From: Olegusella massiliensis
GTDB taxonomy: Bacteria; Actinomycetota; Coriobacteriia; Coriobacteriales; Atopobiaceae
Direction of reading: 5' to 3'
Assembly (NCBI RefSeq): GCF_900078545.1
Contig: NZ_FLLS01000002.1
Coordinates: forward strand, 992,001 to 1,056,000
Length of the DNA: 64,000 nucleotides
Shown here: one piece after another, positions 32,219 through 62,686 of the stretch
Layout of the letters: each line of letters starts with the position of its first letter
Numbering within the stretch: position 1 is the stretch's first letter
Translations under genes and position numbers: made by a program
The notes under the pieces: generated by a model
Seen by the model: the letters and a program-made list of their open reading frames with translations, nothing else
Told to the model about the DNA's origin: nothing
Database searches by the model: none

Positions 32219-32320
32219 TATTTGTGTTGGGCACATCTTCTTATGCATCTTGTTAATGGAGAATCACGCTGTGCGGCCCTGAGGGCACGGCTGAGGTCGT
32301 ACCTGATGGAACGCCTCTAG

Positions 32321-32440
32321 TTGGTCAGCGACCATAGCAGGGGAGGCACACCTGGTCCCATTCCGAACCCAGAAGTTAAGCCCCCGAGCGCCGATGGTAC
32401 TGCGGAGTAGTCCGTGGGAGAGCAGGTCATCGCTGACCAA
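32321..32440 (+). rRNA. 5S ribosomal RNA, copy 2
   Basis: Identical to copy 1 by eye; same closing stem. Ends approximate. Confidence 0.95.
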
Positions 32441-41688: not shown

Positions 41689-41728
41689 AATTTGTACGCG
41701 CTTCTCTTACGAAGGGATGTGTCCTGAC

Positions 41729-48208: not shown

Positions 48209-49054
48209 ATGAATGCACCTACTACATTAGAAGAAGAACTTCTGCGAGCGGAAGGCTTGCTTGTCCAAGGTGAGGCTGAGGCTGCTCATACGCTGTTGGT
48301 ACGCATGGCTGAAGATGCGGAAGGCTATGTTGACGCCAATTGTGTGACAACCGATGAACTGCAATGGTTTAGCTTTCCGTCGCTGTTTGAGCGCTTGGCA
48401 TATCGTCGTGTTGAAGAAGATCCGCGCGAGTTGCGTGATGTGGGTGAGCCATTGGAGCGTTTGTATGGCGACTTGGGGCTTGCTGAGGTGCATCTTGGTG
48501 ACTACGAAGCGGCAATGCGCGCGCTCACTCAGGCGGTGCGATGGAACCCTATGGGTTGTGAGCACAGGCTTAACCTTGCAGATTTATACCGTTTAGCAGG
48601 GAATATGCAGGAGTATTTGGCACTGACATACTCGGTATTTGAGCGCGCATCCGATGTGCAGCATCTTTGCCGGGCGTTTTTGAATTTTGCAAATTGGTTT
48701 GCCGAGACGGATAAGCCCCAGACTGCGGCGGCTGCACTAAGGGTGGCGCGTCGCCTGGACGCACAGGATGGCTCGCTTGCCGCAGCGCTGGAACAAGCGC
48801 AGGGCACTGATCGTGACCCCGATACCTTAAGTGATGCTGAGGCGCGCAAGCTTTTGAGTGAAGAGGGATTGCCCGATGGCGCAAATGCAGAGATTGCTAT
48901 TTGCTTGCTGATGTGTGCAACAGATGCGGCGGATGCTGGCCAGCGTGGGCTTGCAACGCAGCTGACTCTACGTGCTCGCGACCTGGTGGGTGAAGATGCG
49001 GCGATGACCTTGCTACAGCTTATCCGTGCGGATAATACAGCGGATGAGGTTTAG
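48209..49054 (+). CDS. tetratricopeptide-like protein, function unknown
   Basis: A 281-residue soluble, acidic, helix-rich protein. LYGDLGLAEVHLGDYEAAMRALTQAVRWNPMGCEHRLNLADLYRLAGN around residues 85-135 looks like two TPR units. No catalytic motif is visible. ATG 48209 follows GAGAGGA. It sits between rnr (52 bp) and smpB (4 bp) on the same strand, so it is probably cotranscribed with the RNA quality-control genes; a role there is only an inference from position. Confidence 0.75.
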   Translation: MNAPTTLEEELLRAEGLLVQGEAEAAHTLLVRMAEDAEGYVDANCVTTDELQWFSFPSLFERLAYRRVEEDPRELRDVGEPLERLYGDLGLAEVHLGDYEAAMRALTQAVRWNPMGCEHRLNLADLYRLAGNMQEYLALTYSVFERASDVQHLCRAFLNFANWFAETDKPQTAAAALRVARRLDAQDGSLAAALEQAQGTDRDPDTLSDAEARKLLSEEGLPDGANAEIAICLLMCATDAADAGQRGLATQLTLRARDLVGEDAAMTLLQLIRADNTADEV

Positions 49055-49058
49055 CAGT

Positions 49059-49541
49059 ATGGCTCAAAAGACAAACAAGCGTAATATAAAACTTATCTCG
49101 CGCAATCGTTCTGCTCGACATGAGTATGAGATTGAAGAAACCTGGGAAGTAGGTATTGAGCTTACGGGCACCGAAGTGCGCAGTTTGAGAGAGCGCGCTT
49201 GTCAGATTTCAGACTCCTACTGTATTGTCCGCAATGGGCAGCTGTGGTTGGTGGGTGTGCATATCCACCCCTTTTCACATGGTACGGTATGGAATGTTGA
49301 CCCCGATCGACGCAGGCGCCTGCTTATGCACAAGCGTCAGATAAATTATCTTGATGAAAAGCTGCGTATTCGCGGCATGGCTATTGTGCCGCTGCAGCTT
49401 TATTTTGACGAGCATAACCGCGCAAAACTTCAAATTGGTCTTGCTCGTGGCAAAAAACTCTATGACAAGCGTCATGATTTGGCTCAGCGCCAGTCCGAGC
49501 GCGAGATGCAGCGCGCACTGAAGGAACGTAGTCGGTATTAG
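49059..49541 (+). CDS. smpB: SsrA-binding protein SmpB
   Basis: SmpB binds tmRNA (encoded at 63046-63416) and brings it to stalled ribosomes. The 160-residue protein has the OB-fold signature WEVGIELTGTEVRSLRERACQISDSY, and the C-terminal tail KKLYDKRHDLAQRQSEREM that mimics the anticodon arm. ATG 49059 follows GGATGAGG. The last 13 codons and stop are duplicated at 60641-60681 with one base change (Ala to Val), marking this 3' end as an insertion site. Confidence 0.96.
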   Translation: MAQKTNKRNIKLISRNRSARHEYEIEETWEVGIELTGTEVRSLRERACQISDSYCIVRNGQLWLVGVHIHPFSHGTVWNVDPDRRRRLLMHKRQINYLDEKLRIRGMAIVPLQLYFDEHNRAKLQIGLARGKKLYDKRHDLAQRQSEREMQRALKERSRY

Positions 49542-49543
49542 AG
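49503..49543 (+). repeat. 41-bp direct repeat, left copy (3' end of smpB)
   Basis: GAGATGCAGCGCGCACTGAA and the following bases to GTATTAGAG are repeated at 60641-60681 with a single C/T difference (49516 versus 60654). It spans the last smpB codons plus the stop; this pattern is typical of attachment sites of elements that integrate into gene 3' ends. Confidence 0.9.
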
Positions 49544-49586
49544 AACATGGCAAATACGACATAGATACAAGTAAATATACAGGTAT

Positions 49587-49614
49587 TGCCGCCTTTTTGT
49601 TGGCGGCATTTTTT
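49587..49614 (+). terminator. rho-independent terminator after smpB
   Basis: TGCCGCC-N8-GGCGGCA followed by six T residues, 45 bases after the smpB stop. It lies on the island side of the left repeat, so the element brought a terminator that isolates its genes. Confidence 0.9.
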
Positions 49615-49669
49615 AGACCACTTACCGAGTTGGATGTGTATATGAAGAGAGGTTATCTATACTTCAACT

Positions 49670-49695
49670 CATCATGACAACCTAACAACATGATG
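49670..49695. promoter_or_regulatory. inverted repeat upstream of the GntR gene
   Basis: CATCATG-N12-CATGATG, 38 bases before the GntR start, directly beside TTTATAAGAT, a possible -10 region. It is a candidate operator for autoregulation of the cassette. Confidence 0.4.
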
Positions 49696-49733
49696 TTTAT
49701 AAGATACGAAATTGACACTTGGAGACACAAACA

Positions 49734-50534
49734 ATGGATAAGGGAAAAGTGTCTACCAAACGGGTACTGAGGAACGGCACGGTAGTGGTTAACTCTACCC
49801 GGCCTCAATCTTACGTTCCAAAGTATTACACGGTTAAAGAGTGTATCTCCAAAAATATAGCTGCTAATAAATATAGGTCAGGCGATGCAATACCTAGTGA
49901 GCACGACTTAATGGAGTACTTTGGAGTTAGTCGCATTACGATTCGTCGCGCAATCGATGACCTTGTCAACGAGGGTCTTCTCTATCGCGTTCAAGGTAAA
50001 GGTACATATGTTAGCGGCGCGGGATTTAGCGAAGATTTACTTTCGCTTATGAGTTGTACTCAAGATATTCAAAACTTAGGAATGACCCCCACCAGGAAAG
50101 TAATATCAAGTTCAATTGTTGAGCCAGACGCTGAGCGGCGTACAGTGCTAAATCTTGGTGATGGCGAAGCTGTATTTCGACTTGAACGTATTTACTATGC
50201 GGATGATTTGCCCGTAAATCATACGACCACATATCTGCCGAGTCGTCTTTTTCCTGAAATTGAGCAAATTGACTTTTCACAAAACTCTCTTTATGAAGTG
50301 CTTCGCAAGCGATATGAAGTGCAATTGGTTGAAGCGTTTAGAACAGTACAAGCAGTTAGAGCAAATAATGACATTGCGCGATACCTGCAAATCTCAAAAG
50401 CTTCACCCGTGCTTTTCTTTAGCTGTGTAACTACGGGAGAAGTTCGTGGTCGAAAGATTCCAATTGAAACTTTTGACTGTCATTATCGCAGCGACAAATT
50501 CAAGTTTTATATCAGACAAGCTGCTGGTAATTAG
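49734..50534 (+). CDS. GntR/HutC-family transcriptional regulator (UTRA domain)
   Basis: A 266-residue one-component regulator. The N-terminal winged helix is SGDAIPSEHDLMEYFGVSRITIRRAIDDLVNEGLLYRVQGKGTYVS, cut here only by memory of the family pattern (residues about 55-97); the rest is a UTRA ligand-binding domain that senses small sugars or amino compounds. ATG 49734 is 8 bases after TTGGAGA, which itself is an alternative TTG start and is rejected. It opens the catabolic cassette and likely represses it until the imported compound or a phosphorylated product binds. Confidence 0.92.
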   Translation: MDKGKVSTKRVLRNGTVVVNSTRPQSYVPKYYTVKECISKNIAANKYRSGDAIPSEHDLMEYFGVSRITIRRAIDDLVNEGLLYRVQGKGTYVSGAGFSEDLLSLMSCTQDIQNLGMTPTRKVISSSIVEPDAERRTVLNLGDGEAVFRLERIYYADDLPVNHTTTYLPSRLFPEIEQIDFSQNSLYEVLRKRYEVQLVEAFRTVQAVRANNDIARYLQISKASPVLFFSCVTTGEVRGRKIPIETFDCHYRSDKFKFYIRQAAGN

Positions 50535-50612
50535 ACAGATTTTTTGGCAGGAGGACATCAAGAAAGATGTCTAGTTTTAAACGGTACAAGAAGCAACGAA
50601 AGGAAGAGAGAG

Positions 50613-51818
50613 ATGAGAAGCACTAATGTTAGCAGGCGTTCTTTCCTAGGCGGATCCGTTGCATTGATTGGTCTTGGTCTTGCGGGCTGCGGCTCAAAAG
50701 GTAATTCCAAGACAGAATCTGGTTCAGCAGCTAAAGCTGGTGACAAGAAAGTAGCTATTGTATGTGATGCAGCAGGAAAGACTGACAACGGCTTTAACCA
50801 GCAAGCCATTGAGGCTGCTCAATCAATCTGTGATGAGAATGGCTGGGAGCTCAATGTTATTGAGCCCACCAATGGACTCCCCGCAGCTCTTGAGACGTTA
50901 GGTGAAGAGGGATACAACCTCGTCTTTAATATGCAATATGATTTTGAAGCCCTCATTAATGGCACTGGTGGTGCAAGCCCCTTGGCGGAGCAGTATCCAG
51001 ATACCACCTGGGTAGTATTTAACGACAATCCTAATGTTGATAAAGAAGGCAAGCTTATTCATAAAAATGTGATTTCTGTTCTCTTTAATATGAATGAGAA
51101 TTCTTATCTTGCCGGTGCTCTTGCAGTTTTAGTTAATGAGAACGCAGAAAAAATCTTTGCAGGCGGTGATTACAAGTTTACCGCTCCAGACAAGACACGT
51201 GCAATGGGCTTCATTGGCGGCACCGAATCTAATGGTATTACGGTATTCTCCTATGGCTTTATTCAGGGCATGCAGCATGAGGCGGAGAAACTTGGTGTGA
51301 AATATGACTATTACACCAAGTATGATGCTGGTTTTACAGATACTGCCGCTGGTTCAACGACAGCAGGTACCTACTATGACAACGGCGCAAATATTGTATT
51401 TGTTGCTGCAGGCGGCGTGGGCACAGGTGTAACCTCCAAGGCAAAAGAGGTTGGCAAGTTAGCTATAGAAGTTGATGCCAATAAGGATGAGGATCAGCCT
51501 GGTTATATTCTCACGTCTGTGTTGAAGTCAACCAATGTACCCGCCCAGGCGCTCTGCGAGGCGCTCGGTAATGGCAGTATTGCTGAGGTAGAGCGTGTGC
51601 AATATTACAACCTTGAATCTGGTGCAGTTGATTTGACTGATTTTGCAACGATTGAAAAGTCGATTACTTCTGATGAGGGCAAGACAAAGTGGGAAGAAGC
51701 AAAGCAGGAGATTGCAACTTTAAAGAAGCAAATTATTGATGGCGACATTAAGGTTGTAAACGCTCAAGAAGGCGAAACATTTGATCCTGCTACTTGTCCC
51801 AACGTGAATATTAAGTAG
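50613..51818 (+). CDS. BMP-family substrate-binding lipoprotein (nucleoside-type ABC importer)
   Basis: A 401-residue extracytoplasmic binding protein of the Bmp/PnrA family, most members of which bind nucleosides. The N-terminus has a twin-arginine motif SRRSFLGG and a lipobox LAGC with Cys30, so export by Tat and lipid anchoring are predicted. Family blocks include DNGFNQQAIEAA and MGFIGGTESNGITVFSYGF. ATG 50613 follows GAAAGGAAGAGAG. A strong hairpin after the gene separates it from the ATPase and permeases, as expected if more binding protein than transporter is made. Confidence 0.92.
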   Translation: MRSTNVSRRSFLGGSVALIGLGLAGCGSKGNSKTESGSAAKAGDKKVAIVCDAAGKTDNGFNQQAIEAAQSICDENGWELNVIEPTNGLPAALETLGEEGYNLVFNMQYDFEALINGTGGASPLAEQYPDTTWVVFNDNPNVDKEGKLIHKNVISVLFNMNENSYLAGALAVLVNENAEKIFAGGDYKFTAPDKTRAMGFIGGTESNGITVFSYGFIQGMQHEAEKLGVKYDYYTKYDAGFTDTAAGSTTAGTYYDNGANIVFVAAGGVGTGVTSKAKEVGKLAIEVDANKDEDQPGYILTSVLKSTNVPAQALCEALGNGSIAEVERVQYYNLESGAVDLTDFATIEKSITSDEGKTKWEEAKQEIATLKKQIIDGDIKVVNAQEGETFDPATCPNVNIK

Positions 51819-51829
51819 CTTGCTACATA

Positions 51830-51869
51830 TAAGAGGGGATGGTTGCATTATTTGCATCCCCTCTTATTT
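51830..51869 (+). terminator. attenuating hairpin between binding protein and transporter genes
   Basis: Perfect 12-bp stem TAAGAGGGGATG/CATCCCCTCTTA with a 13-base loop, then only TTTC. Probably a partial terminator or an mRNA 3'-end protector for the binding-protein message. Confidence 0.75.
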
Positions 51870-51923
51870 CATGCGTTTTTATGTCTATGTGTTCCACCTC
51901 AACCATACGGAGATGTATGGCAG

Positions 51924-53495
51924 ATGAATATTATCCAAACAATCGGCTTAACAAAGAAGTTTGGTGACTTTGTTGCCAATGATCACATTGACCTCTCAAT
52001 CAAAGAGGGGGAAATCCGCTGCATTGTCGGCGAAAACGGTGCAGGCAAATCAACATTGATGAATATGCTCTATGGGATGTTGCGTCCTACGAGCGGCACA
52101 CTTCTGCTCCGCGGTAAAGAAGTTCAGATTGACAGTCCTACCGATGCGATTAACCTAGGCCTTGGCATGGTGCACCAACACTTTAAGCTTGTACCTAGTC
52201 TTACGGTCTATGAGAATATTCTGCTAGGAGCCGAGATTAAGAAATCGGCAAATTCCCCGCTGATTGATACACGTAAAGAAATTGAAGTTGTACGCGCATT
52301 GATTGACGATTATGACTTTGAGCTGAATCCTGAGGATAAGGTTGAAGACATTTCCGTTGGCGAACGTCAGCGGGTAGAGATTCTCAAAATGTTATATCGC
52401 AATGTCGATATCCTTATTTTGGATGAGCCAACGGCGGTGCTTACCCCTCAAGAAGTTGACGGACTCTTTGAGAATCTTCGCAAACTACGCTCTCAAGGCA
52501 AAACTATCATCGTCATTACGCACAAGTTGCGTGAGGTCATGGCGTTGTCCGACAACGTTACCGTTATCAAAGCTGGAAAAGTTGTTGGCCAGCTTAAGAC
52601 AAGCGAGACAAATGAAGTGGAACTTGCCCAACTAATGGTGGGTCGCAAGGTGGCCCATGCAGTTAATGATGGCTCGGTCCAAGCACCCTCTGACAACATT
52701 ATGTATTACGTTGAAAATCTACGCACGATTGATGGGTATGGCAACGAAGTTCTCTTTGGAGTTTCATTTGAGGTTCATAAAGGAGAGATTCTTGGCATTG
52801 CAGGTGTTGAGGGCAATGGTCAATCAGAACTAGTAAGCCTTTTATCGGGGACGATGGAGGCTACAGCAGGAAAAGTATTTCTTAAAGGTAACGATATCAC
52901 CAATTGGTGGCCTGATCAGCTTCGCCATGTTGGGATAGGTATTATTCCGGAAGATCGAGGTCTAGAGGGTCTATGTGGAACAATGAGCATTGCTGATAAC
53001 GCGATAGCAGGCTATCACGATCGATCCGAAGTTTGTCATCATGGCTTTTTGGATAGCAGAGCAATTAAGACAAAGCGTGATCGTCTTCTTGAAGCCTTTG
53101 CTGTCCGTACGGGTGATGTTAACGGTGATGTAGGCGCTCTTTCTGGTGGAAATGCGCAAAAACTCATTGTTGCTCGTGAACTCGAAAGCAATCCACATTT
53201 CCTTATTGCCTGTCAGCCTACGCGTGGTGTTGATATTGGATCAGAAGAATTTATCCATGCTAAATTGCTTGATTTTCGTAATGCCGGCCAGTCAGTGCTG
53301 TTGGTGTCCAGTGAGCTTTCTGAGGTGCTAGGCCTTTCAGACAGAGTACTCGTTATGTATCGCGGAAAAATCGCAGGTGAAGTGGATCCTAAAAAGGTTA
53401 CGAGTCGAGAGGTGGGCCTGCTGATGGCGGGAATCTCGGCCGAGGAGCAAAAATCAGAAAGAAAGGAGGTAGGCGATGAAGAGAACCAATCGTAA
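51924..53495 (+). CDS. ABC transporter ATP-binding protein with two ABC domains (nucleoside/sugar type)
   Basis: A 523-residue tandem ATPase of the RbsA/NupO type. Domain 1 has a complete Walker A GENGAGKS at 36-43, signature SVGERQRVEI and Walker B ILILDEPTAVLTP. Domain 2 has the degenerate P-loop GVEGNGQSELVS and signature LSGGNAQKLIVARE, as is normal for this family, so one site probably hydrolyses ATP. ATG 51924 has GGAG 11 bases upstream. The gene overlaps the first permease by 20 bp. Confidence 0.94.
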   Translation: MNIIQTIGLTKKFGDFVANDHIDLSIKEGEIRCIVGENGAGKSTLMNMLYGMLRPTSGTLLLRGKEVQIDSPTDAINLGLGMVHQHFKLVPSLTVYENILLGAEIKKSANSPLIDTRKEIEVVRALIDDYDFELNPEDKVEDISVGERQRVEILKMLYRNVDILILDEPTAVLTPQEVDGLFENLRKLRSQGKTIIVITHKLREVMALSDNVTVIKAGKVVGQLKTSETNEVELAQLMVGRKVAHAVNDGSVQAPSDNIMYYVENLRTIDGYGNEVLFGVSFEVHKGEILGIAGVEGNGQSELVSLLSGTMEATAGKVFLKGNDITNWWPDQLRHVGIGIIPEDRGLEGLCGTMSIADNAIAGYHDRSEVCHHGFLDSRAIKTKRDRLLEAFAVRTGDVNGDVGALSGGNAQKLIVARELESNPHFLIACQPTRGVDIGSEEFIHAKLLDFRNAGQSVLLVSSELSEVLGLSDRVLVMYRGKIAGEVDPKKVTSREVGLLMAGISAEEQKSERKEVGDEENQS

Positions 53496-54600
53496 TAATC
53501 TAAAAAAAGCCGTTTTAAACTCAGTTCTTCCTGTTCTGCTTGCTCTTATAATCGGCGCAATTATTATTGCCTGCATTGGTGAAGACCCTTTGGCTACGTA
53601 TACCCTTCTTTTTGAGAAATCTTTACTGACGCCAAAAGGCTTTATGAACACCTTGCACTACGCGATGCCATTAGTGCTGACGGGCTTGGCAATCGCAGTG
53701 ACATTCAAGGCAAATATATACAACATGGCAGTTGAAGGCTCGTGTGTTCTTGGCGGATTCTTTGCGGGTATCGTGGGAGCGAGTCTCTCTGCACAGATGG
53801 ATGTTCTCTCTATGCAGGCCATCTGCCTTCTTACGGGCATACTTTTTGGTGTCCTCTTTGCGCTGCTTCCAGCTGTGCTTAAAGCAGTTTTTCACGTAGA
53901 TGAGATGGTAGTTACCTTGATGCTTAACTACGCTCTCCAGAAGATTTTGGAGTACTTAGCAACTGGTGTATTTCGCGATACTGCCTCAGGCTATGTATGT
54001 ACTCCTACAATCCATACAAATGCAATGTTCAACCGAATAGGCAATTTTCGCATTACACCCTTTGTATTTATAGCCTTGGTCGCCTTTATCATTATCTATT
54101 TGATAATGAAGCACAGTAAGTTAGGCTACGAAATTACCGCAATGGGGAAGAGTGCGACTTTCTCTGAAGCTATGGGTATGCGCACCACCCGCAAAATAAT
54201 TATTTTAATGATAATCTCTGGGGCACTTTCAGGTCTTGCGGGTGCTGGCTGGATGATGAGCGAAAAATTCAAGTATACCTTGGACTTTTCAGGTAATCCT
54301 GGCCTTGGCTGGGATGGCATGTTGGTATCTCTGCTTGGTGGGCACTCACCTATCGGAATTCTGGTGGCGGCTATTCTTTATGCAGCGCTTAAAACTGGAG
54401 CAGATAGCATCAATATTTACTCCACCGTTCCGAAAGAGATAGTTTCAGTTATTCAAGGTCTGATTATTCTTTTCTTAGCTATCAAGTTTGTTGATGAGCG
54501 TTTTGGAGTAAGCGGCAAAATCTCGCAAGCAATACACACATATAAAGCTCGCCACAAGAAAACTACGTCTGATCAAATTTCAGTTCAAGAGGAGGTCTAG
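53476..54600 (+). CDS. ABC transporter permease 1 (NupP/BPD_transp_2 family)
   Basis: A 374-residue protein with about eight to ten membrane segments and the coupling region FSEAMGMRTTRKIIILMIISGALSGLAGA typical of branched permeases paired with BMP proteins. The ATG follows GAAAGGAGG inside the ATPase gene's end. It forms a heterodimer with the next product. The cytoplasmic tail of about 30 residues is polar. Confidence 0.92.
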   Translation: MKRTNRNNLKKAVLNSVLPVLLALIIGAIIIACIGEDPLATYTLLFEKSLLTPKGFMNTLHYAMPLVLTGLAIAVTFKANIYNMAVEGSCVLGGFFAGIVGASLSAQMDVLSMQAICLLTGILFGVLFALLPAVLKAVFHVDEMVVTLMLNYALQKILEYLATGVFRDTASGYVCTPTIHTNAMFNRIGNFRITPFVFIALVAFIIIYLIMKHSKLGYEITAMGKSATFSEAMGMRTTRKIIILMIISGALSGLAGAGWMMSEKFKYTLDFSGNPGLGWDGMLVSLLGGHSPIGILVAAILYAALKTGADSINIYSTVPKEIVSVIQGLIILFLAIKFVDERFGVSGKISQAIHTYKARHKKTTSDQISVQEEV

Positions 54601-54601
54601 T

Positions 54602-55516
54602 ATGCAGCTCCTCGGTAACATTCTGTACGACACTATTTACCATAGTGCTCCAATTATTTTGTGCGTTATCGGAGGTGTATTTGCCTTTAAAGCAAATGTG
54701 CTCAATATTGCGCTCGAAGGAATGATGGGTATTGGCGCATTTTTTTCAGTATATGTGACATTTATTACAGGCAATTTATTATTGGGATTTATTGCTGGGG
54801 TAATTGTAGCGTTGGTTTTTGGCGTGATGTTTTCGTTGTTTGGAGTGACTTTCAAGGGCAATGTTATTGTTGTCGGCCTTGCACTTAATTTGTTAGCAAC
54901 AGCAATTGCAAGTTTCATTTTGGTGCAAATGGGTGAGTCAAACCTCACGCTTTCACATTTTAGTGTGGCAGATCTTCAGATTCATATCCCCTATATCGAA
55001 TCTATACCACTTCTAGGCTCTCTTCTCTCAGGACATCCCTTCCTAACGTATGTTGCTTTTATTGGTGTTTGGCTGACATGGATGCTGATGTATCGTACAA
55101 AATTTGGCACCTATGTACGTGTGGTCGGTGAAAATGAAGATGCGGCAAAGAGTCTCGGCCTTAAGACAGATTTGTACAAGTGGTGTGCTGTGCTTATTGG
55201 GGCGCTTTGCTGTGGTCTCGCGGGCGTTAATCTCTCTACCGAGCGTTTGGGTCTTTATACAAATGGTATGACTGCGGCGCGAGGATTTATTGCAATTGCC
55301 GCTATTTATTGTGGCCGAGGCGATCCCTTTATCTCCTCTATTTATGCTGTTCTCTTTGGATTAGCCCGTTCCCTAGCAATTAATTTCGCTGTTTTTGCGG
55401 GTCCTATAGCAGGTCTCTTTGATGTTATTCCCTACATCGTGATGGTGGTCGCGCTCTTTGTGGCTTCCGTTAGTCAGCGCCGCCACGTCAAGGTTAGGGG
55501 GTTTGCAAATGGCTAG
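54602..55516 (+). CDS. ABC transporter permease 2 (NupQ/BPD_transp_2 family)
   Basis: A 304-residue partner permease with the family N-terminus FKANVLNIALEGMMGIGAF and the coupling block RVVGENEDAAKSLGLKTDLYKW. It starts one base after the stop of permease 1 with AGGAGG 7 bases upstream, and its end overlaps the cysteine hydrolase gene, linking import tightly to catabolism. Confidence 0.92.
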   Translation: MQLLGNILYDTIYHSAPIILCVIGGVFAFKANVLNIALEGMMGIGAFFSVYVTFITGNLLLGFIAGVIVALVFGVMFSLFGVTFKGNVIVVGLALNLLATAIASFILVQMGESNLTLSHFSVADLQIHIPYIESIPLLGSLLSGHPFLTYVAFIGVWLTWMLMYRTKFGTYVRVVGENEDAAKSLGLKTDLYKWCAVLIGALCCGLAGVNLSTERLGLYTNGMTAARGFIAIAAIYCGRGDPFISSIYAVLFGLARSLAINFAVFAGPIAGLFDVIPYIVMVVALFVASVSQRRHVKVRGFANG

Positions 55517-56117
55517 TAAAACAACATCTGCGGCAATCGATGCAAAAAATCATGACCAGACTGCTCTTTTGATTGTAGATATGCTGCGTGACTTTACTAA
55601 CCCTGCAGGGCTGGTTTATTACCCACAAAATAGGGAAGTGCTTCCCCGTATCGCGGAGGTTCTAAAGAAATTTCACGATAGTAAGAGGTTGGTAATTTTT
55701 CTAAGGCATTTTACTCGTGCAAATAAGCCCGATGCTAAATCTTCATCTATGCGCCCGAATTCTATTGAGGGAAGTTGGGGTGACGAAATCGATGACATGC
55801 TTAGGGTGGATCCTGAGTGTGATTACATCATCAATAAAAGACGATACAGCGGTTTTTTTGGAACTGATTTGGATTTGGTCTTGCGTGAACACGACATAAA
55901 AAACCTGGTCATTGTAGGTACCAAGACAAATTGCTGTATCCGGGCTACGGTTACCGATGCGTTCAACCTTAACTACGAACCAATAGTTGTAAGGGAATGC
56001 GTAGCAACTAATTCCCAGATAGTAAATGAGGTAAACCTGCAAGATATCGATAAATACCTAGGTAGCGTCATTACTCAAGAGGAGCTATTTGAAAAGCTGG
56101 AGAGGGGGGAACTGTAA
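55509..56117 (+). CDS. isochorismatase-family cysteine hydrolase
   Basis: A 202-residue amidohydrolase fold with the family triad: Asp in LLIVDMLRDF, Lys in IINKRRYSGFFGTDLD and the nucleophile Cys143 in NCCIRATVTDA. It lacks the His-rich zinc motif of nicotinamidases, so it is closer to isochorismatase, ureidoacrylate or N-carbamoyl hydrolases. ATG 55509 overlaps the permease end after GGGGG; its stop shares a base with the kinase start (TAATG). In this setting it may act on a base or base fragment freed by the phosphorylase; this is inference. Confidence 0.85.
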   Translation: MASKTTSAAIDAKNHDQTALLIVDMLRDFTNPAGLVYYPQNREVLPRIAEVLKKFHDSKRLVIFLRHFTRANKPDAKSSSMRPNSIEGSWGDEIDDMLRVDPECDYIINKRRYSGFFGTDLDLVLREHDIKNLVIVGTKTNCCIRATVTDAFNLNYEPIVVRECVATNSQIVNEVNLQDIDKYLGSVITQEELFEKLERGEL

Positions 56118-57109
56118 TGACAGGTGATAGTTTGCCAATAGCCACTGAAGTACTAACGAGTGGTTATGTGAGCATGGATCATATGGTAAGAGTAAAGACA
56201 CCTGTGCGCGTTGGATACACTTCCCTCATTTCTAACGCGAGCTGCAACACCATAAATTACGGCGGATGCTCGGTAAATATTGCCTATGCTTTAGCGCAGC
56301 TCAGTGTTGCAGCGGCGCCTGTGTTGCGTGTTGGTAATGATTGGGAGAACAATGGTTTTAGGGCTTTTCTTGAGAAGGGAAATGTCCGTACATATGCGAT
56401 TGAAGTTATACCTAGTGAAATTACCTCCCTTTCATACATGGTGGAAGATCCGGAAGGCCAACATATCTGTCTCTTTTATCCGGGCTCAATGGATGCTTGC
56501 TATGCCCACAAGCTGCCTGAAAAGCTTTTTGAGGGAGTTAGCTTAGCTGTTATTACAGTCGGCTCTCGGCCTGATAATGAAGAATTCTTTCATCAGTGTA
56601 AGACGCATAAGGTGCCAGTGGCGTTTGGCATGAAATGTGACTTTGATGCCTTCCCGCAGAGCTTTCTTCTCCAATTACTCAGGGGGAGTCAAGTGATTTT
56701 CTCCAATGAAGGCGAGCGCGATTATCTAGTAGATCAGTTTGCTTTAGGGAGCATCGAAGAGCTTTTTGAATATGAGGCAAAAGTCATTGTGACTACAAAA
56801 GGAGCGAATGGCTCTTGCTATGCTGCAAAACTTCCTGATGGGACAATCGAGCACGGCAGCTTGGGCTGTTGTCCCGTAGACGAAATTGTGGATGCTACAG
56901 GTAGTGGCGATGCGTATATGTCGGGATTTATCTATGGCTACCTGCGTGGTTATGACCTCAAGGATTGCTGTGCTTTAGGGGCGACCCTTTCAGCATTCGT
57001 ACTTGAAAAAGAGGGCTGCTGCGCAGGAGTGCCTGATGAGATGGAGCTGCTTGAACGCTTTACGGCTTTCCGTAAATCAATGTCGTTCGATGAAGGCAAC
57101 AATAGATAA
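56117..57109 (+). CDS. PfkB-family carbohydrate/nucleoside kinase
   Basis: A 330-residue ribokinase-fold kinase. The C-terminal signature is VDATGSGDAYMSGFIYGYL, with Asp265 as the catalytic base and the GSGD anion hole (usually GAGD). The N-terminal SINYGGCSVNIAYALAQL block (here CNTINYGGCSVNIAYALA) matches the substrate-side GG motif. Possible substrates are ribose, a nucleoside or ribose 1-phosphate; the context of a phosphorylase next door favours a pentose derivative. It overlaps the hydrolase stop by one base. Confidence 0.9.
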   Translation: MTGDSLPIATEVLTSGYVSMDHMVRVKTPVRVGYTSLISNASCNTINYGGCSVNIAYALAQLSVAAAPVLRVGNDWENNGFRAFLEKGNVRTYAIEVIPSEITSLSYMVEDPEGQHICLFYPGSMDACYAHKLPEKLFEGVSLAVITVGSRPDNEEFFHQCKTHKVPVAFGMKCDFDAFPQSFLLQLLRGSQVIFSNEGERDYLVDQFALGSIEELFEYEAKVIVTTKGANGSCYAAKLPDGTIEHGSLGCCPVDEIVDATGSGDAYMSGFIYGYLRGYDLKDCCALGATLSAFVLEKEGCCAGVPDEMELLERFTAFRKSMSFDEGNNR

Positions 57110-57122
57110 AAGAGGTTTCACT

Positions 57123-57878
57123 ATGGGAACACTGTATATGGGCGGAGATTCTAGTACGATTGCCCCTACCGTTATTTTTTCAGGCGATCCTTGGCGTGTT
57201 GAAGTTGTCAAAGATTATCTTGATAGACCTAAGAAAGTTGCTTTTAATCGTGAATTTAATACTTATACCGGCAGTTATAAAGACGTGCCGGTAACGGTGA
57301 CTTCAACTGGTATGGGGGCTCCTACGGCAGCGGTTGCGGTGGAAGAGATGTACGCATCTGGCATGCGCGTAGCCATCCGTATGGGGACCGTCATGTCGCT
57401 GGATGATGATATGCTGGGCGAATTTTTTGTACCCGTAGCTGCTATGAGGCGTGAAGCGACAAGCGATACCTATGTGGATAAATCGTTTCCTGCCGTTGCT
57501 GACTTTGATCTTATCAACGTGATGAATGAAGTGGTACATGACTATGGTCATCGCAGCAGCAATGGGATTTCATGCTCCATGGATGGCTTTTATACCCAGA
57601 TGCATGATTCAAAATTTTCGCGTGAGTTTGGCCGCGATATAAGCAAGATCTTTCACGAGCTTCATAACTTGCATGTGGGCGGGGTCGATATGGAAACATC
57701 CTGCATGCTTACGGTTTGTCGTCTCATGGGCGTAAAAGCTTGTTCCCTTACCGTGGCAACAGTTCTTGAAAATCTTAAAGCTGCACTCCAAGGGAAGGCA
57801 CGCACCGATGCAGAAGATCTGCTGTGTCGTGTTGCTCTAGAGGGCGCTTACCGCTATAACCAGCGCTTTGGCGCATAG
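57123..57878 (+). CDS. nucleoside phosphorylase, uridine-phosphorylase-like
   Basis: A 251-residue NP-I family enzyme that would split a nucleoside with phosphate into base and (deoxy)ribose 1-phosphate. FSGDPWRVEVVKDYLD, STGMGAPTAAVAVEE, RMGTVMSL and GVDMETSCML are the family blocks; SFPAVADF and SMDGFYTQM align best with uridine phosphorylases. The residue context differs from E. coli Udp at the phosphate loop (RMGTVMS rather than RIGTTGA), so the substrate may not be uridine. ATG 57123 follows AAAGAGG; the frame upstream is a run-on through the kinase end. Confidence 0.88.
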   Translation: MGTLYMGGDSSTIAPTVIFSGDPWRVEVVKDYLDRPKKVAFNREFNTYTGSYKDVPVTVTSTGMGAPTAAVAVEEMYASGMRVAIRMGTVMSLDDDMLGEFFVPVAAMRREATSDTYVDKSFPAVADFDLINVMNEVVHDYGHRSSNGISCSMDGFYTQMHDSKFSREFGRDISKIFHELHNLHVGGVDMETSCMLTVCRLMGVKACSLTVATVLENLKAALQGKARTDAEDLLCRVALEGAYRYNQRFGA

Positions 57879-57893
57879 AAGAAAGGATGTCTT

Positions 57894-58679
57894 ATGAGTA
57901 AAACGCTATTTCCGTTAAACGGAAAAACCGCTATCGGAATGGTTCATTGCCTAGCTCTTCCTGGTGCTGCAAATTTTGATGGCAATATGGACAAAGTGGT
58001 CACGCAGGCAATTGAGGATGCACGCACTCTTGAGCGCGCTGGTGCAGATGCAGTTATTGTTGAAAATATGAATGATTTGCCTTTGCCAGCAGAGCTTAAC
58101 AAGGTTGAGGTTGCTGCACTTGCAGCTGTCACTTCTTTGGTTTGCCACTCAGTGTCTATCCCCGTAGGAGTTGATGCTGCTTTCTCCGACGGCGAAGCTG
58201 CAGTTGCGGTTGCCGTAAGCGCTGGGGCACAGTTTGTGCGCTGCCCAGTCTTTGTTGATACGGTAGTCAACTTTTGCGGAACGATTGGTCCGTCTGCCCA
58301 AATTGTTATGCAGACGAAGGCCCGCCTGCATGCTGAGGATATTTTTGTTTTGGCAGATATCCAAGTTAAGCACTCACGCATGCTGTTGCCAGAGACCTCT
58401 ATCGAGGAGTCTGCAGCTAATGCGGTTGCCTGTGGAGCCGATGGCATTATTGTTACGGGTTTGACGACGGGTATGGCGACTCCTATGGAGCTTGTCACGC
58501 GAGTAAAAAATGTAGTACAGGTTCCTGTTTTTGTGGGATCCGGCGTTACTGCCAAGTCTATTGCTGATCAATTGTCTATCGCAGACGGTGCCATTATCGG
58601 TACAAATACTAAACCTGGCGGAGTGTTATCGGCACCCGTTGACTACGACCTTGCACACGAGCTTTTTTCAAGCCGCTAA
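57894..58679 (+). CDS. BtpA/SgcQ-family TIM-barrel protein
   Basis: A 261-residue (beta/alpha)8 protein of the BtpA family: IGMVHCLALPGAANFDG at the start, ERAGADAVIVENMND, PVGVDAAFSDGEAAVAVA and GSGVTAKSIADQL with a C-terminal phosphate-binding-like loop DGAIIGTNTK. BtpA was named for photosystem I in cyanobacteria and SgcQ lies in a sugar operon of E. coli, but no reaction is established. The phosphate-site pattern suggests a phosphorylated sugar substrate. GAAAGGA precedes the ATG; it lies 15 bp after the phosphorylase. Confidence 0.88.
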   Translation: MSKTLFPLNGKTAIGMVHCLALPGAANFDGNMDKVVTQAIEDARTLERAGADAVIVENMNDLPLPAELNKVEVAALAAVTSLVCHSVSIPVGVDAAFSDGEAAVAVAVSAGAQFVRCPVFVDTVVNFCGTIGPSAQIVMQTKARLHAEDIFVLADIQVKHSRMLLPETSIEESAANAVACGADGIIVTGLTTGMATPMELVTRVKNVVQVPVFVGSGVTAKSIADQLSIADGAIIGTNTKPGGVLSAPVDYDLAHELFSSR

Positions 58680-58734
58680 AACAAAGTTGTTTTTGTAAGC
58701 AGTGATATAGCACTGTAAGAACGGAGAGAAGAAT

Positions 58735-59883
58735 ATGATGCGTCCCATGAAGCTTGCAGGAAGTGAGCTTATGTTTGGCAAAGGAAGCCTCGAATACATC
58801 AAGACTTCCGTATATTGCAAGCGAGCAATCATTGTCATTGGTGGTAAGAGTGTTGAAAAAAACGGCACTCTTGCAAAAGTGGAAGAGTATTTTCACGCTA
58901 ATGGTGCTCAAACTACGGTCTTTGAAGGTGTTGAGCCAGATCCCCACTTTGCGACTGTTAAAGCTGGCGCAAATGTAATGACTGAATGGCAGCCAGATCT
59001 AATTTGTGCGTTGGGAGGTGGTTCAGTAATGGATGCCGCAAAGACGATGTGGGTCATGTACGAGCATCCAGAACTTGATACGCTTGATAAAATATTGAGT
59101 ACCAAGCCGTTGCCTAAACTGCGTGCAAAAGCACGCTTTATGTGCATCCCTTCTACTAGTGGAACTGCAAGTGAAGTCTCCCGTTCAGTGGTAATTTCCG
59201 ATGATGAAACAGGTCATAAGCACGGCCTTGGTGATATGGAAATGATGCCAGATATCGCAATTGTTGATCCTCTGGTTTCCTGCTCAATGCCTGCACATGT
59301 TACTGCGGAAACGGGTATGGATGCGCTGACTCATGCAATCGAGGCGCTCGTTTCTAATCGTGCCAATTATGTGTCCAATATTCTGGCGATAGCTGCTGCA
59401 AAAGATATCGTTACCTGGCTTCCTAAAGCCTATGCCGATGGCAATAATATGGAAGCTCGCGAAATGATGGCAAATGCTTCTATGACGGCAGGGCTTGCTT
59501 TTACTAATGTCTCTCTTGGCATTGATCATTCGATGGCACAGACCATTGCAGGGTTTTTCCCCATGGCTCATGGTCGTATTTGCGCAATCCTGCTCCCTTA
59601 TACCATTGAATGGAACAGCCAAGATTTAAGAGCAAAGCAAATCTATACCGATTTTGGCGCATTAATCGGTACTGATAATCTTGCGCAGTATGTGCGCGAG
59701 CTGAATATAGCAGTGGGCATTCCCCATTGCATTCGTGAAATTGTGCCTGATAAGGATGCCTTTATGGCAGTTCTTGATGATATGGCACGTCTATCGCTTG
59801 CTGATGGTTGCACTAAGACCAACCCCATTATTCCAACGGTTCCTCAATTTGCCGAGCTTATAGAAAAGGCCTACCTTGGCTAG
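58735..59883 (+). CDS. iron-containing alcohol dehydrogenase
   Basis: A 382-residue group III dehydrogenase. The nucleotide loop is ALGGGSVMDAAKT, SGTASEVSRSVVIS binds the second half of the cofactor, and the metal site is formed by Asp/His residues in GMDALTHAIEAL, DHSMAQTIAGFFPMAHG. It would reduce a small aldehyde (or oxidise a polyol) with NAD(P)H. ATG 58735 is preceded by ACGGAGAGAAG. It is the only obvious redox enzyme of the cassette, so it may dispose of an aldehyde generated by sugar cleavage. Confidence 0.92.
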   Translation: MMRPMKLAGSELMFGKGSLEYIKTSVYCKRAIIVIGGKSVEKNGTLAKVEEYFHANGAQTTVFEGVEPDPHFATVKAGANVMTEWQPDLICALGGGSVMDAAKTMWVMYEHPELDTLDKILSTKPLPKLRAKARFMCIPSTSGTASEVSRSVVISDDETGHKHGLGDMEMMPDIAIVDPLVSCSMPAHVTAETGMDALTHAIEALVSNRANYVSNILAIAAAKDIVTWLPKAYADGNNMEAREMMANASMTAGLAFTNVSLGIDHSMAQTIAGFFPMAHGRICAILLPYTIEWNSQDLRAKQIYTDFGALIGTDNLAQYVRELNIAVGIPHCIREIVPDKDAFMAVLDDMARLSLADGCTKTNPIIPTVPQFAELIEKAYLG

Positions 59884-59896
59884 AGAAGAGAAAAAG

Positions 59897-60613
59897 ATGA
59901 AATTGATTTGTTATTTCTCGGGCGGATATCCTGATTTTAAGAGTGCCAATCGACTGGCTCACGCATATGCTGATGCGGGTGTGGATACCCTAGAGATTGA
60001 TTTTCCTTCTTCCAATCCCTTTGTAGATGCTCCGTATATTCAGCAACGTATGAAAAAAGCTCTTGAGCATTGTAACGATCTAGATAAGTATCTTGAAGCC
60101 GTTGCCCAAATTAAGAGTGAATTGCCAAGTAAAGCCATTTTGCTGACTATTTATGAAAGCAGCATTGTAGAAATTGGCATCGAAAAATTCTGTGCTTTCT
60201 GCCGTGAGAATGATTTGCTTGATGTTATCGTGACAGGTCTTACAGGCGATGACGTAAAAGATGCTCTGATTGCAGGCGGTGTACATGTTAGCTGCTACGT
60301 TCCCTTTGATCTGCCAGAGACTGATGTAGAGTTAGCACTTTCATCAAATGGCTTTTGCTATCTTCAGGCAGTTCCCACGCAAGCGCAGATCAATGCAAAA
60401 CACCCCGATCTTGCGTCTTGTATCAACTATCTTAGGAACCGGGGCTTAAAGAATCCAATATATTGCGGTGTGGGTGTGCATAGTCCAAAAGAAGCAAAAA
60501 TGGTACGTGACGCTGGTGCAGACGGTGTGTTTGTGGGAAGTGCGGTATTAAAACTGACTGACGATTTGCCAGCAATGACTGAGTTGATTGGAAAATTTAA
60601 GGCAGTTTGTTAA
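59897..60613 (+). CDS. TrpA-like (tryptophan synthase alpha family) lyase, no TrpB partner
   Basis: A 238-residue TIM barrel resembling tryptophan synthase alpha: YFSGGYPDF is the family start, TLEIDFPSSNPFVDAPYIQQR corresponds to the active-site segment, and GVGVHSPKEAKMVRDAGADGVFVGSAVLKL is the C-terminal phosphate-binding region. Glu33 and Asp44 keep the 11-residue spacing of the catalytic Glu49 and Asp60 of E. coli TrpA, so retro-aldol chemistry is plausible. No trpB or other trp gene is nearby, and the protein is about 30 residues shorter than TrpA. ATG 59897 follows AGAGAAGAG; the gene overlaps nothing after the dehydrogenase. It ends 27 bp before the right island repeat. Confidence 0.82.
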   Translation: MKLICYFSGGYPDFKSANRLAHAYADAGVDTLEIDFPSSNPFVDAPYIQQRMKKALEHCNDLDKYLEAVAQIKSELPSKAILLTIYESSIVEIGIEKFCAFCRENDLLDVIVTGLTGDDVKDALIAGGVHVSCYVPFDLPETDVELALSSNGFCYLQAVPTQAQINAKHPDLASCINYLRNRGLKNPIYCGVGVHSPKEAKMVRDAGADGVFVGSAVLKLTDDLPAMTELIGKFKAVC

Positions 60614-60640
60614 TTACATCTACCTAGCCATTTCTGTTGT

Positions 60641-60681
60641 GAGATGCAGCGCGTACTGAAGGAACGTAGTCGGTATTAGAG
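60641..60681 (+). repeat. 41-bp direct repeat, right copy (orphan smpB tail)
   Basis: Matches 49503-49543 at 40 of 41 bases. In the smpB frame it would encode EMQRVLKERSRY and the TAG stop, but no smpB body precedes it. It is the probable right attachment site. Confidence 0.9.
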
Positions 60682-60775
60682 GGCGAAAACATTTTCTATC
60701 TGTGTTTAAAATTTCTCATACGTGGTATCCTACCTGCAAGCGCAAGGTGCGCAAACCGTCGAGAGAGGAGCCATT

Positions 60776-60916
60776 ATGGCTGACGAGAAGACCTACACGT
60801 TCCGCTGCACTGTTTGTGGCTATGAAGTTACCGTCGACACTCCCGAGCTGCCTGATGACTATGTCTGCCCCGTCTGCGGCGTCGGTGCTGATATGTTCGA
60901 GCTGGTTGAGGATTAG
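60776..60916 (+). CDS. small rubredoxin
   Basis: A 46-residue electron-transfer protein with one Fe(Cys)4 site: Cys11 and Cys14 in CTVCGY, Cys31 and Cys34 in CPVCG. It is shorter than clostridial rubredoxins (52-54 aa), lacking part of the loop between the cysteine pairs. ATG 60776 follows GAGAGAGGAG; the frame upstream to 60722 has no ribosome binding site. A terminator follows at 60941, so it is a single-gene unit just outside the island. Confidence 0.92.
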
Positions 60917-60940
60917 TACTTCTTACAATGTGTATGGTAG

Positions 60941-60966
60941 AGGCGGCCCTGCGGGGTCGCCTTTTT
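60941..60966 (+). terminator. rho-independent terminator of rubredoxin gene
   Basis: 9-bp stem AGGCGGCCC/GGGTCGCCT with one G-U pair, a four-base loop and T5. Confidence 0.85.
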
Positions 60967-61003
60967 AATACGGGTGCTTATGAGTTTGACGGCGGTGTGA
61001 CGC

Positions 61004-61597
61004 ATGACAACAGATAGACTTGAAGCTTTTTCTGATGGCTGTATTGCAATTTTTATTACGATTACCCTGCTGACATTTCGACTGCCAGAAGGAGATACGT
61101 ATGCCAATCTCTTGGTACAAGTTCCTGCTTTTTTCTGTTATGCAATAAGCTTTATCGTGATTGGTATCTATTGGGGCAACCACCATCATCTGATTCATAC
61201 CATTGAAAAAGTTTCTGAAAAAATCATGTGGGCAAATATGGCATGGCTTTTTGCGCTGAGTCTGGTGAGCTTTGCGACGGGCTGGGTGGCACTCTATATG
61301 CTTGCTCCGCATACAGTATCTTTTTTTGGTGTCATTTTGCTGGCATGCAATCGGACCTATGTGTATCTTGAACACTGTGTAGTTGAGTGCGAACGTGAAG
61401 AGGCAAAGCAGCGCGGTGCACGGTATAGCCTTGACGACAGGCTAGGCGAGCGCATCAAGGAGCGCGTATCGATGTGTTTCTATGCAAGTGGCGCTGTGAT
61501 AGCGTTTTGGCTGCCTTGGGTTGCCGTGCTTTTTTACTTTGTGGTCAACGTTATCTGGTTTGTACCCGATCGTCGCATTGTCCACATTATGGAATAA
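61004..61597 (+). CDS. TMEM175-family potassium channel-like membrane protein (DUF1211)
   Basis: A 197-residue protein with the family signature RLEAFSDGCIAIFITI at residues 5-20 (RxxxFSDG) and about five to six membrane segments; HHHLIHT in the second half is also usual. Bacterial TMEM175 proteins form tetrameric potassium channels without the classical selectivity filter. The C-terminal half has an acidic/basic loop EREEAKQRGARYSLDDRLGERIKER between membrane segments. The ribosome binding site is weak (GGCGGTG). Confidence 0.9.
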   Translation: MTTDRLEAFSDGCIAIFITITLLTFRLPEGDTYANLLVQVPAFFCYAISFIVIGIYWGNHHHLIHTIEKVSEKIMWANMAWLFALSLVSFATGWVALYMLAPHTVSFFGVILLACNRTYVYLEHCVVECEREEAKQRGARYSLDDRLGERIKERVSMCFYASGAVIAFWLPWVAVLFYFVVNVIWFVPDRRIVHIME

Positions 61598-62173
61598 ACT
61601 TTTGCAGCGCTTTGATGTGTGCTTGATAAGAGCGTTTTGTATATAAATGTGATGGCGACTTCTTTTTTTCCTATAGGTGGTTCAGTAGGCACTCTTTTAC
61701 CCGTAAGCAGCTCACCATGCTCCTATACGGCAATCATGATTTTCTCTGTTCGTCGTGGGCTTACATTGCAGCTGATGCTACAACGTAAGACGGACGGCAC
61801 CTACTGCAATAGGTCAAGCCATCTCCAAATCACTTTTGTAGAGTGAAGAGAGCGGCCGTTCCTATTTAGTTAGGGGCGGCGTTTTCTTTGGGCAATCACA
61901 TCGCCGCATTTTCCACTTTTTGCTTCATCACGCCATTCGGCTTTAAGCTGCGATGCCAGTGGGCGCCTTGTGGTTAGTGCTTAGTCCTTGAGCGCCAGGA
62001 TGGCAGCGAACGCATCGACCTTAAGCCAAGGAACGATAACGAGCGCTAATACTCTTTTATTAGTGACGACAATCAACCGCAGCAAAATTGAGCGCAACTA
62101 AGAATACTTTGGCAGGTGTATAAGCGATCGATTCTGATCTGACTGCTCAAGACTCTTATCTTCAGCAGGCTTG
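61598..62173. other. 576-bp stretch without a supported gene
   Basis: Contains a terminator at 61855-61886. On the minus strand, 62098-61983 has a 39-codon frame (TTG start, no ribosome binding site) ending RVLALVIVPWLKVDAFAAILALKD, which looks protein-like and may be the remnant of a lost gene. Nothing else is recognised. Confidence 0.5.
61855..61886 (+). terminator. rho-independent terminator, plus strand
   Basis: 10-bp stem GCCGTTCCTA/TAGGGGCGGC with two G-U pairs, six-base loop, followed by GTTTTCTTT. It probably ends the TMEM175 transcript. Confidence 0.65.
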
Positions 62174-62686
62174 CTAATAACTCTTTTTTTCTATGAGGAT
62201 TATCCCGATGCCTGCGCCAACCAAAACAATAGGGGCAAGTCTGACAAAAGCCCATTCAAAGCTATGGATAATGGTTCCTATCACAGCAGTCTCAGGATTG
62301 CTATAGTCCCATTCCAAATACGATCCGTCTATTCCTAATAGAACTGCAAAGATGATGACAATTGCAACGCATAGTAGAATCAAAAACCATCGAAGGTGCT
62401 TTCTCCTAGCCTCTTTCTGTTGTGCTAGTTGAAAGTTAATGACCTCAAGCTTTTCTGATATGACCTTTAGTTCGTCAGTTTCAGTTACCGTTACGTTCTC
62501 GCCAAGCAGTGTGCTTGTGGGGACTTCGAATACATCTGATATGGAAATAAGCATTTCAGAATCAGGGACCGATAGGCCTCGTTCCCATTTTGAAACCGTT
62601 TGCCGCACCACGTTCAGCTTGATAGCAAGGTCGTCCTGCGAAAGTCCCTTAGATTTTCTCAGCGCTTTGATATTTTCGTTTAGCAT
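62174..62686 (-). CDS. membrane-bound XRE-family transcriptional regulator
   Basis: A 170-residue protein with an N-terminal HTH_3 domain (NIKALRKSKGLSQDDLAIKLNVVRQTVSKWERG, residues about 4-37), a short coiled linker with many Glu/Lys and two membrane segments near residues 98-118 and 140-165. Such membrane-tethered XRE proteins sense the envelope or a partner membrane protein. ATG 62686 is chosen because AAGGAGG lies 8 bases upstream; the open frame beyond it has no site. A perfect hairpin sequence (62725-62747) lies 39 bases upstream. Confidence 0.85.
   Translation of the reverse strand: MLNENIKALRKSKGLSQDDLAIKLNVVRQTVSKWERGLSVPDSEMLISISDVFEVPTSTLLGENVTVTETDELKVISEKLEVINFQLAQQKEARRKHLRWFLILLCVAIVIIFAVLLGIDGSYLEWDYSNPETAVIGTIIHSFEWAFVRLAPIVLVGAGIGIILIEKKSY

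Follow-up and report, generated by a model that had tools for sequence, protein, structure and literature searches.

A probable nucleoside-catabolic operon of eleven genes, shared between two bacterial phyla and containing BtpA- and TrpA-like proteins

A 64-kb stretch of the 1.81-Mb genome of Olegusella massiliensis (C2:992001-1056000, referred to here as the window, with positions counted from its first base) carries eleven plus-strand genes which fill positions 49719-60613 and very probably form a nucleoside-catabolic operon. Reading of the open reading frames together with family models gave, in the order listed in Table 1, a GntR regulator, a BMP-type ABC importer, an isochorismatase-fold cysteine hydrolase (Cys-hydrolase), a PfkB kinase, a UdP-like phosphorylase, a BtpA-family protein, an iron-containing alcohol dehydrogenase (Fe-ADH) and a TrpA-like protein (TrpL). 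Junctions between the genes are mostly short or overlapping, and the cassette is bounded by smpB (49026-49541) and a TMEM175-like gene (61004-61597). All gene families named in a preliminary description of this DNA were recovered with Pfam and curated models, on the plus strand and at the positions it had given. A more specific account, in which a mobile and probably GntR-controlled operon breaks down an unusual ribonucleoside by the steps proposed below, is favoured here and held with somewhat less than even confidence; the full assignment of those steps is more doubtful.

Conservation of the gene set was investigated by TrpL alignment in a scan of one genome per species, covering about 85,000 species; two short peptide patterns were used, so that distant forms were possibly missed. 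Of the eight loci found, three are in Olsenella-group genomes, two in records of Caproiciproducens galactitolivorans and one each in Atopobium sp. oral taxon 810 and Tractidigestivibacter scatoligenes; the last is a Clostridiales fragment. All eleven genes stand in identical order and orientation in the long loci, and the Clostridiales fragment is consistent with this over its length; the loci showing collinearity (L033, L034, L035, L036, L039, L040, L042 and L045) come from Actinomycetota and Bacillota. The conserved set that the preliminary description had proposed to look for in other genomes thus exists, with eleven genes collinear. Carriers besides the source are five other Atopobiaceae genomes and Caproiciproducens (Bacillota), the closest in the scan being Atopobium sp. 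oral taxon 810, whose cassette proteins are 91-98% identical to those of the window. Close TrpL was present in five genomes, the source included, among about 90 of the host family and in 2/295 genomes of the Caproiciproducens order, and close PfkB in 1/398 genomes of the Caproiciproducens phylum, which shows the cassette to be rare among the genomes covered. Gene content, co-inheritance, family membership and the conserved residues described below are direct observations. Collinearity of eleven genes across two phyla in differing surroundings argues for a self-sufficient unit; ordinary nucleoside salvage genes brought together by chance would be an extremely improbable explanation, since each family alone is common but strict collinearity in unrelated surroundings contradicts it.

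Genes flanking the cassette vary between genera, and in a cassette-free genome of the same genus (G003) smpB and a patatin-like gene, both of which flank the cassette in the window, are separated by about 2.5 kb. TrpL of Caproiciproducens shares 70-75% identity with Olsenella-group TrpL and 53-54% with TrpL of the window, and GC content is 43-47% in the cassette versus about 50% upstream. Since TrpL relationships do not follow species, neighbours differ and GC content is offset, the module is predicted to be mobile; judged from these comparisons, it is one functional unit transferred horizontally as a whole, between phyla. No BtpA relative was found in viral contigs with the patterns used, plasmid matches were only distant (about 32-36% identity for BtpA and about 28% for TrpA), and a PHROGs comparison yielded nothing useful. 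The preliminary description had raised the possibility that the enzymes might separate into other gene neighbourhoods; BtpA and PfkB do co-occur elsewhere, so that some of the genes do come apart from the rest; close TrpL was seen only within the eleven-gene unit.

On the favoured account, for which every reaction, substrate and the order of steps is a prediction, the BMP-ABC importer would take up a nucleoside, the UdP-like enzyme would release the base by phosphorolysis to leave a pentose 1-phosphate, and PfkB would phosphorylate the 5'-OH to give ribose 1,5-bisphosphate. In an alternative order a nucleoside kinase would act first and a nucleotide phosphorylase second, with the same end compound. 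BtpA would then rearrange the phosphosugar, most likely by aldose-to-ketose isomerisation to ribulose 1,5-bisphosphate (RuBP), and TrpL would make a retro-aldol cut that yields a triose phosphate together with a C2 aldehyde, either glycolaldehyde or its phosphate. Fe-ADH would reduce the aldehyde to an alcohol, re-oxidising NADH in the fermenting cell, and the Cys-hydrolase would attack the base hydrolytically, at an amide or ureido group. The interpretation given in the preliminary description is upheld in part: its reading of the locus as one catabolic unit with a nucleoside-type substrate is supported, and the catalytic residues of the kinase, phosphorylase and hydrolase and the acid pair of TrpL are all kept.

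The nearest solved chains of the BMP protein are Lbp (7x0r) and PnrA-type lipoproteins. PnrA proteins bind nucleosides, and the relationship fits a nucleoside substrate without naming which. With Escherichia coli uridine phosphorylase (UP) the UdP-like protein shares 26-31% identity, and it does not reach the cut-off of the curated uridine phosphorylase model (TIGR01718, 159 bits, cut-off 280). It keeps the phosphate-binding Gly/Arg/Arg/Thr and the ribose Met-Glu. In UP, His8 holds the 5'-OH, a Glu holds the 2'/3'-OH, and R168 and R223 bind uracil. The position of R223, which aligns with D204 of DeoD, is an invariant Glu in the carriers, the Q166/R168 region is altered too, and His8 is replaced by an invariant Tyr. 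Since the R168/R223 equivalents are altered, uridine is an unlikely substrate, and the changed base site points towards a purine-like or modified base. The kinase has an active-site GxGD that is invariant among carriers, and its nearest solved chain is MJ0406 (2c49, 121 bits), a known nucleoside kinase; further nucleoside kinases and adenosine kinases come next. Kinases of this kind, like the haloarchaeal ribose-1-phosphate kinase, transfer phosphate to the 5'-OH of a ribofuranoside.

The Cys-hydrolase triad (D24, K110, C142/C143) is likewise invariant among carriers, and the nearest solved structures are 3hb7, N-carbamoylsarcosine amidase-like proteins and RutB. Nicotinamidases belong to the same family of folds, and some of the matches were to them, as would be expected if the cassette were a nicotinamide riboside operon in which the UdP-like enzyme frees nicotinamide for a nicotinamidase. 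That explanation is very improbable: the NCBIfam nicotinamidase model scores 38 bits (cut-off 174), the metal motif Asp-x-His is missing from the carrier hydrolases, where the position reads (R/K)H(F/C), and salvage of NAD would not need PfkB, BtpA, TrpL or an alcohol dehydrogenase. Nicotinamidase identity was rejected for the hydrolase on account of the missing motif.

TrpL is confidently modelled by AlphaFold2 as a triosephosphate isomerase (TIM) barrel (pLDDT 92.4), which superimposes on TrpA with a VIA Z score of 27.6 (2.1 A over 227 residues, 24% identity). Glu49 of TrpA corresponds to E33 of TrpL, which is invariant, D60 corresponds to D44 or E44, and the phosphate-site GVG...GS is retained. 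Around the substrate site the residues are changed, with invariant Glu87, Gln164 and His169. The curated trpA model TIGR00262 is narrowly missed (99.7 bits, cut-off 102.35), trpB did not exceed its cut-off in any of the eight carrier genomes tested, and no second TrpA-like protein was matched in the source genome. On these features TrpL is a relative of TrpA that has TrpA-like chemistry at its disposal, and its substrate is most likely a different one. Five carriers (G000, G001, G028, G066 and G090) had zero trpB match and the cassette TrpL as sole TrpA-like match, and these appear unable to make tryptophan via the usual synthase.

BtpA exceeds the cut-offs of its family models (PF03437, 214.5 bits, cut-off 30; TIGR00259, 200 bits, cut-off 153) and is modelled by AlphaFold2 as a TIM barrel with moderate confidence (pLDDT 77.9). 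Among the 37 BtpA sequences compared, N58, R116 and K240 are common to all. The carrier proteins fall in a subgroup in which strand 5 is followed by a VKH motif, shared with BtpA genes that adjoin PfkB kinases, and another subgroup, which lacks VKH, adjoins kinases that read as FGGY-like. BtpA stands beside PfkB in L077, L079, L080, L082, L085 and L096, and the accompanying aldolases vary: L086 encodes what reads as a DeoC-like protein, and L082 a TAL/FSA protein. Since BtpA is paired elsewhere with kinases and differing aldolases, TrpL is the likeliest cutting enzyme here; BtpA most likely acts on the kinase product, upstream of interchangeable aldolases, of which TrpL would be that of this cassette.

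Several BtpA loci are of interest in their own right. L085 (G616:C84:47000-64000) places BtpA with GntR, PfkB, a SIS protein, a BMP-ABC importer, three xanthine-dehydrogenase-like genes and an amidohydrolase; it looks like a purine nucleoside cassette and should be of use for finding the role of BtpA. The source genome holds a second BtpA, 31% identical and without the VKH motif (L037, C2:215000-232000, at 7335-8162), whose neighbours read as an FGGY-like kinase, two GntR regulators, PfkB kinases, an AP-endonuclease-like TIM barrel and an amidohydrolase-like gene; with a similar set in Caproiciproducens (L099), this appears to be another undescribed sugar locus. On a Sagittula stellata plasmid (L079), GntR-PfkB-BtpA adjoins the ureidoglycine aminohydrolase gene allE and a Zn hydrolase, and a second BtpA lies beside TenA. 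A VKH-subgroup BtpA adjoins a PfkB kinase on a Haloferax larsenii plasmid (L077, 6971-8741), which could be relevant to those haloarchaea in which the phosphorylase and kinase occur without a known ribose 1,5-bisphosphate isomerase. Plasmid pPR13E03 of Rhizobium indicum (L080) carries phosphotriesterase, glutamine amidotransferase, BtpA, TenA and ribokinase genes consecutively, and three of the five types are represented in the Salmonella rikA locus, the carbon source of which is not known (PMC13432705).

A number of observations weigh against the favoured account. The fold neighbours of BtpA include aldolases, of the 3-hexulose-6-phosphate synthase (HPS) and 2-keto-3-deoxy-6-phosphogluconate (KDPG) type, tied with other families, and the roles of BtpA and TrpL may be swapped, with TrpL isomerising by its general acid-base pair and BtpA as the aldolase. 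The VIA neighbours HPS (Z 20.4 and 20.2), 2-keto-3-deoxy-6-phosphogalactonate (KDPGal)/KDPG aldolase (19.4 and 19.0) and MfnB MJ1099 (20.7) are all carbon-carbon enzymes, the K159-H160 pair, where strand 5 ends, is invariant in carrier BtpA, and TrpL reaches 19.7 bits against the triosephosphate isomerase model. K159 is not universal in BtpA, however, and the structural neighbours are tied among many TIM barrels, so fold neighbours do not show function and were rejected as a guide to that of BtpA. As TrpA-family chemistry is retro-aldol and BtpA loci elsewhere have their own aldolase (DeoC-like or TAL/FSA), the swap is judged unlikely. Further difficulties for the favoured account are that, with no phosphatase in the cassette, glycolaldehyde phosphate would be formed when RuBP is cut, and this would be an unusual substrate for an alcohol dehydrogenase of this family, and that the kinase matches the haloarchaeal ribose-1-phosphate kinase model only weakly (NF053626, 75.8 bits, cut-off 330). 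Other PfkBs score similarly against this model, and the match was rejected as proof of kinase specificity. The E. coli UP and DeoD sequences served as reference for the phosphorylase, with residue roles taken from established knowledge.

The Tyr in place of UP His8 is a further point of this kind, as it could indicate a substrate without an ordinary 5'-OH. This would suit an analogue of the dihydroxyacetone phosphate (DHAP) shunt acting on 5'-deoxynucleosides (5'-deoxyadenosine, for instance), in which the AdhE-like dehydrogenase would reduce acetaldehyde, and the nearest solved chain of Fe-ADH is indeed the AdhE alcohol dehydrogenase domain 3zdr. The shunt, however, has no need of a kinase once a phosphorylase has acted, and a 5-deoxy sugar lacks the 5'-OH that a kinase would use. 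The enzyme set of the shunt, a PF01008 isomerase and a class II aldolase, is not in the cassette, and PF01008, the family of ribose 1,5-bisphosphate and 5-methylthioribose 1-phosphate isomerases, is absent from the source genome as well as from five of the eight carriers. Such an analogue is considered quite improbable. If isomerisation occurs, the absence of PF01008 means that another, non-homologous protein must carry it out. The cassette also holds no HAD-type RuBP phosphatase and no FucA-type aldolase; a PF00596 protein is present elsewhere in the source genome.

The preliminary description had stated that deoxyribose-phosphate aldolase and phosphopentomutase are absent. This holds for the cassette only, as the source genome has deoB and deoC at C2:647626-649799. 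Among the eight carrier genomes tested, deoB was found in all and exceeded its cut-off in seven, and deoC exceeded its cut-off in all eight; a transketolase pair, identified by sequence reading, lies in the same window (41651-43497). With these enzymes present, plain ribose 1-phosphate needs no new route, which also counts against the proposed scheme. Since the deo enzymes are encoded elsewhere in the genome, the cassette fills no gap for ordinary nucleosides, which suggests that it serves a substrate different from ordinary ribonucleosides, or redox balance via the dehydrogenase. A related explanation is that the pentose of the substrate is not plain ribose but a modified one, such as the 2'-O-methylribose or arabinose of modified nucleosides, which after phosphorolysis and 5-phosphorylation would be cut between C2 and C3 to glyceraldehyde 3-phosphate and a substituted acetaldehyde. 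Glyceraldehyde 3-phosphate is the natural product of TrpA, and TrpL retains the site in which TrpA binds its substrate by the glycerol-phosphate end; the altered UdP pocket and the coverage of ordinary nucleosides by deoB, deoC and transketolase agree with this. Yet the UdP-like enzyme retains the Glu that holds the 2'/3'-OH in UP, the cassette has no demethylase or epimerase, and no particular sugar is directly indicated, so that a modified pentose is thought rather unlikely.

The boundaries of the cassette were also examined for regulatory elements. The strong terminator-like hairpin that sets the cassette apart from smpB (Table 1) is also kept in carrier locus L036. Upstream of gntR, a 12-mer like ACAACATGATGT occurs in five carrier loci from two phyla with 0-3 mismatches, at 25-33 bases from the gntR start codon in four carrier loci and at 49 in the window, where a TTG upstream of the start codon, at 49719, is in frame. 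Sharing of the 12-mer was matched by 0/200 shuffles, a comparison in which relatedness of the loci was not controlled. The repeat is suggestive of a GntR operator, and shared ancestry could also explain the sharing. Rfam gave nothing above threshold over 48900-62500, and hence no known riboswitch, and ARAGORN found no tRNA or tmRNA within the 64-kb window that might mark an island insertion site. The window also contains two tandem rRNA operons (16S-23S-5S, 21976-26879 and 27535-32438) with identical scores and spacing; with zero tRNA in the window, none lies between their 16S and 23S genes.

Table 1. Genes of the cassette and predicted regulatory elements upstream, in window positions.
Feature	Position	Strand	Evidence
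Intrinsic-terminator-like hairpin ending the upstream smpB transcript	49587..49608	+	7-bp stem, 6 G-C, T-run after; consensus match only
Candidate GntR operator CATCATG-N12-CATGATG, inverted repeat containing ACAACATGATGT	49670..49696	+	Shared 12-mer
GntR/UTRA transcriptional regulator	49734..50534	+	PF00392 65.5 bits, PF07702 110.6 bits; ortholog first in carrier loci
BMP/PnrA-type substrate-binding lipoprotein	50613..51818	+	PF02608 108.7 bits
ABC ATPase, two nucleotide-binding domains	51921..53495	+	PF00005 in two stretches, 171 bits
ABC permease A	53476..54600	+	PF02653 125.8 bits
ABC permease B	54602..55516	+	PF02653 109.4 bits
Isochorismatase-fold Cys amidohydrolase	55509..56117	+	PF00857 135.5 bits
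PfkB-family kinase, predicted ribofuranosyl 5'-OH kinase	56117..57109	+	PF00294 121.3 bits
UdP-like nucleoside phosphorylase, base and 5' sites altered	57120..57878	+	PF01048 111.2 bits
BtpA-family TIM barrel, VKH-motif subgroup	57894..58679	+	PF03437 214.5 bits
Fe-ADH, predicted short-aldehyde reductase	58735..59883	+	AdhE model 332.9 bits; lactaldehyde reductase 233.8
TrpA-like TIM barrel (TrpL), predicted carbon-carbon lyase	59897..60613	+	PF00290 104.6 bits

BtpA/SgcQ proteins are widespread in sugar operons, and a search of the open-licence literature found no described reaction for the family in that setting. The cassette offers a defined context for identifying such a reaction, as a kinase would supply the substrate and a dehydrogenase would take the product. 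Should the scheme hold, the cassette would represent a variant form of nucleoside-sugar catabolism, and its two central enzymes would have new functions. A doubly phosphorylated pentose route with BtpA as phosphosugar isomerase, the first TrpA-derived sugar-phosphate aldolase and an interphylum eleven-gene cassette is put forward only tentatively. If true, it would mean that the TrpA fold has been re-used for sugar breakdown, would reveal how oral and gut anaerobes can use nucleosides from the host or its diet as food, and would extend the suggestion of Sato et al. that ribose-1-phosphate kinase and ribose 1,5-bisphosphate occur more widely among archaea and bacteria than had been assumed (PMC9700705).

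No published assignment of this gene set, which the preliminary description had allowed might exist, was found in the open-licence literature, and one may exist elsewhere. The preliminary description had drawn a parallel with the logic of the DHAP shunt; the haloarchaeal non-carboxylating pentose bisphosphate pathway is nearer (PMC9700705), as the shunt needs no second phosphate. The shunt and 5-deoxyribose salvage resemble the proposed scheme in converting a nucleoside sugar to DHAP and an aldehyde, but differ in using one phosphate, a kinase or a phosphorylase, another isomerase family, a Mn-dependent aldolase and 5-deoxy sugars (PMC6079011, PMC10986504). The pentose bisphosphate pathway of Thermococcales shares the conversion of nucleoside to ribose 1,5-bisphosphate and differs in its Rubisco end and archaeal enzyme families (PMC9700705). 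As to the single proteins, TrpL has the fold, phosphate site, acid pair and expected retro-aldol chemistry of TrpA and its lyase relative BX1, and differs from them in identity (24-27%), substrate-site changes, operon context and the lack of a TrpB over cut-off in carriers; the cassette BtpA falls within the BtpA/SgcQ family, to which the photosystem-I name does not apply here. In the haloarchaeal pathway, the genes of which are partly in operons and of which further variants were expected, a UdP-family phosphorylase and a PfkB ribose-1-phosphate kinase are followed by isomerisation, aldol cleavage to DHAP and glycolaldehyde, and reduction to ethylene glycol (Sato et al. 2022, PMC9700705). Its isomerase is eIF2B-like (PF01008), a HAD enzyme dephosphorylates RuBP, the aldolase is of the FucA type and the reductase is related to glycerol-1-phosphate dehydrogenase (PMC9700705). 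The cassette likewise has a UdP-family phosphorylase beside a PfkB kinase, together with an aldehyde reductase, but differs in having BtpA and TrpL in the middle, no phosphatase, and an additional importer and Cys-hydrolase. On the favoured account the cassette would work like the haloarchaeal pathway without belonging to it by gene content.

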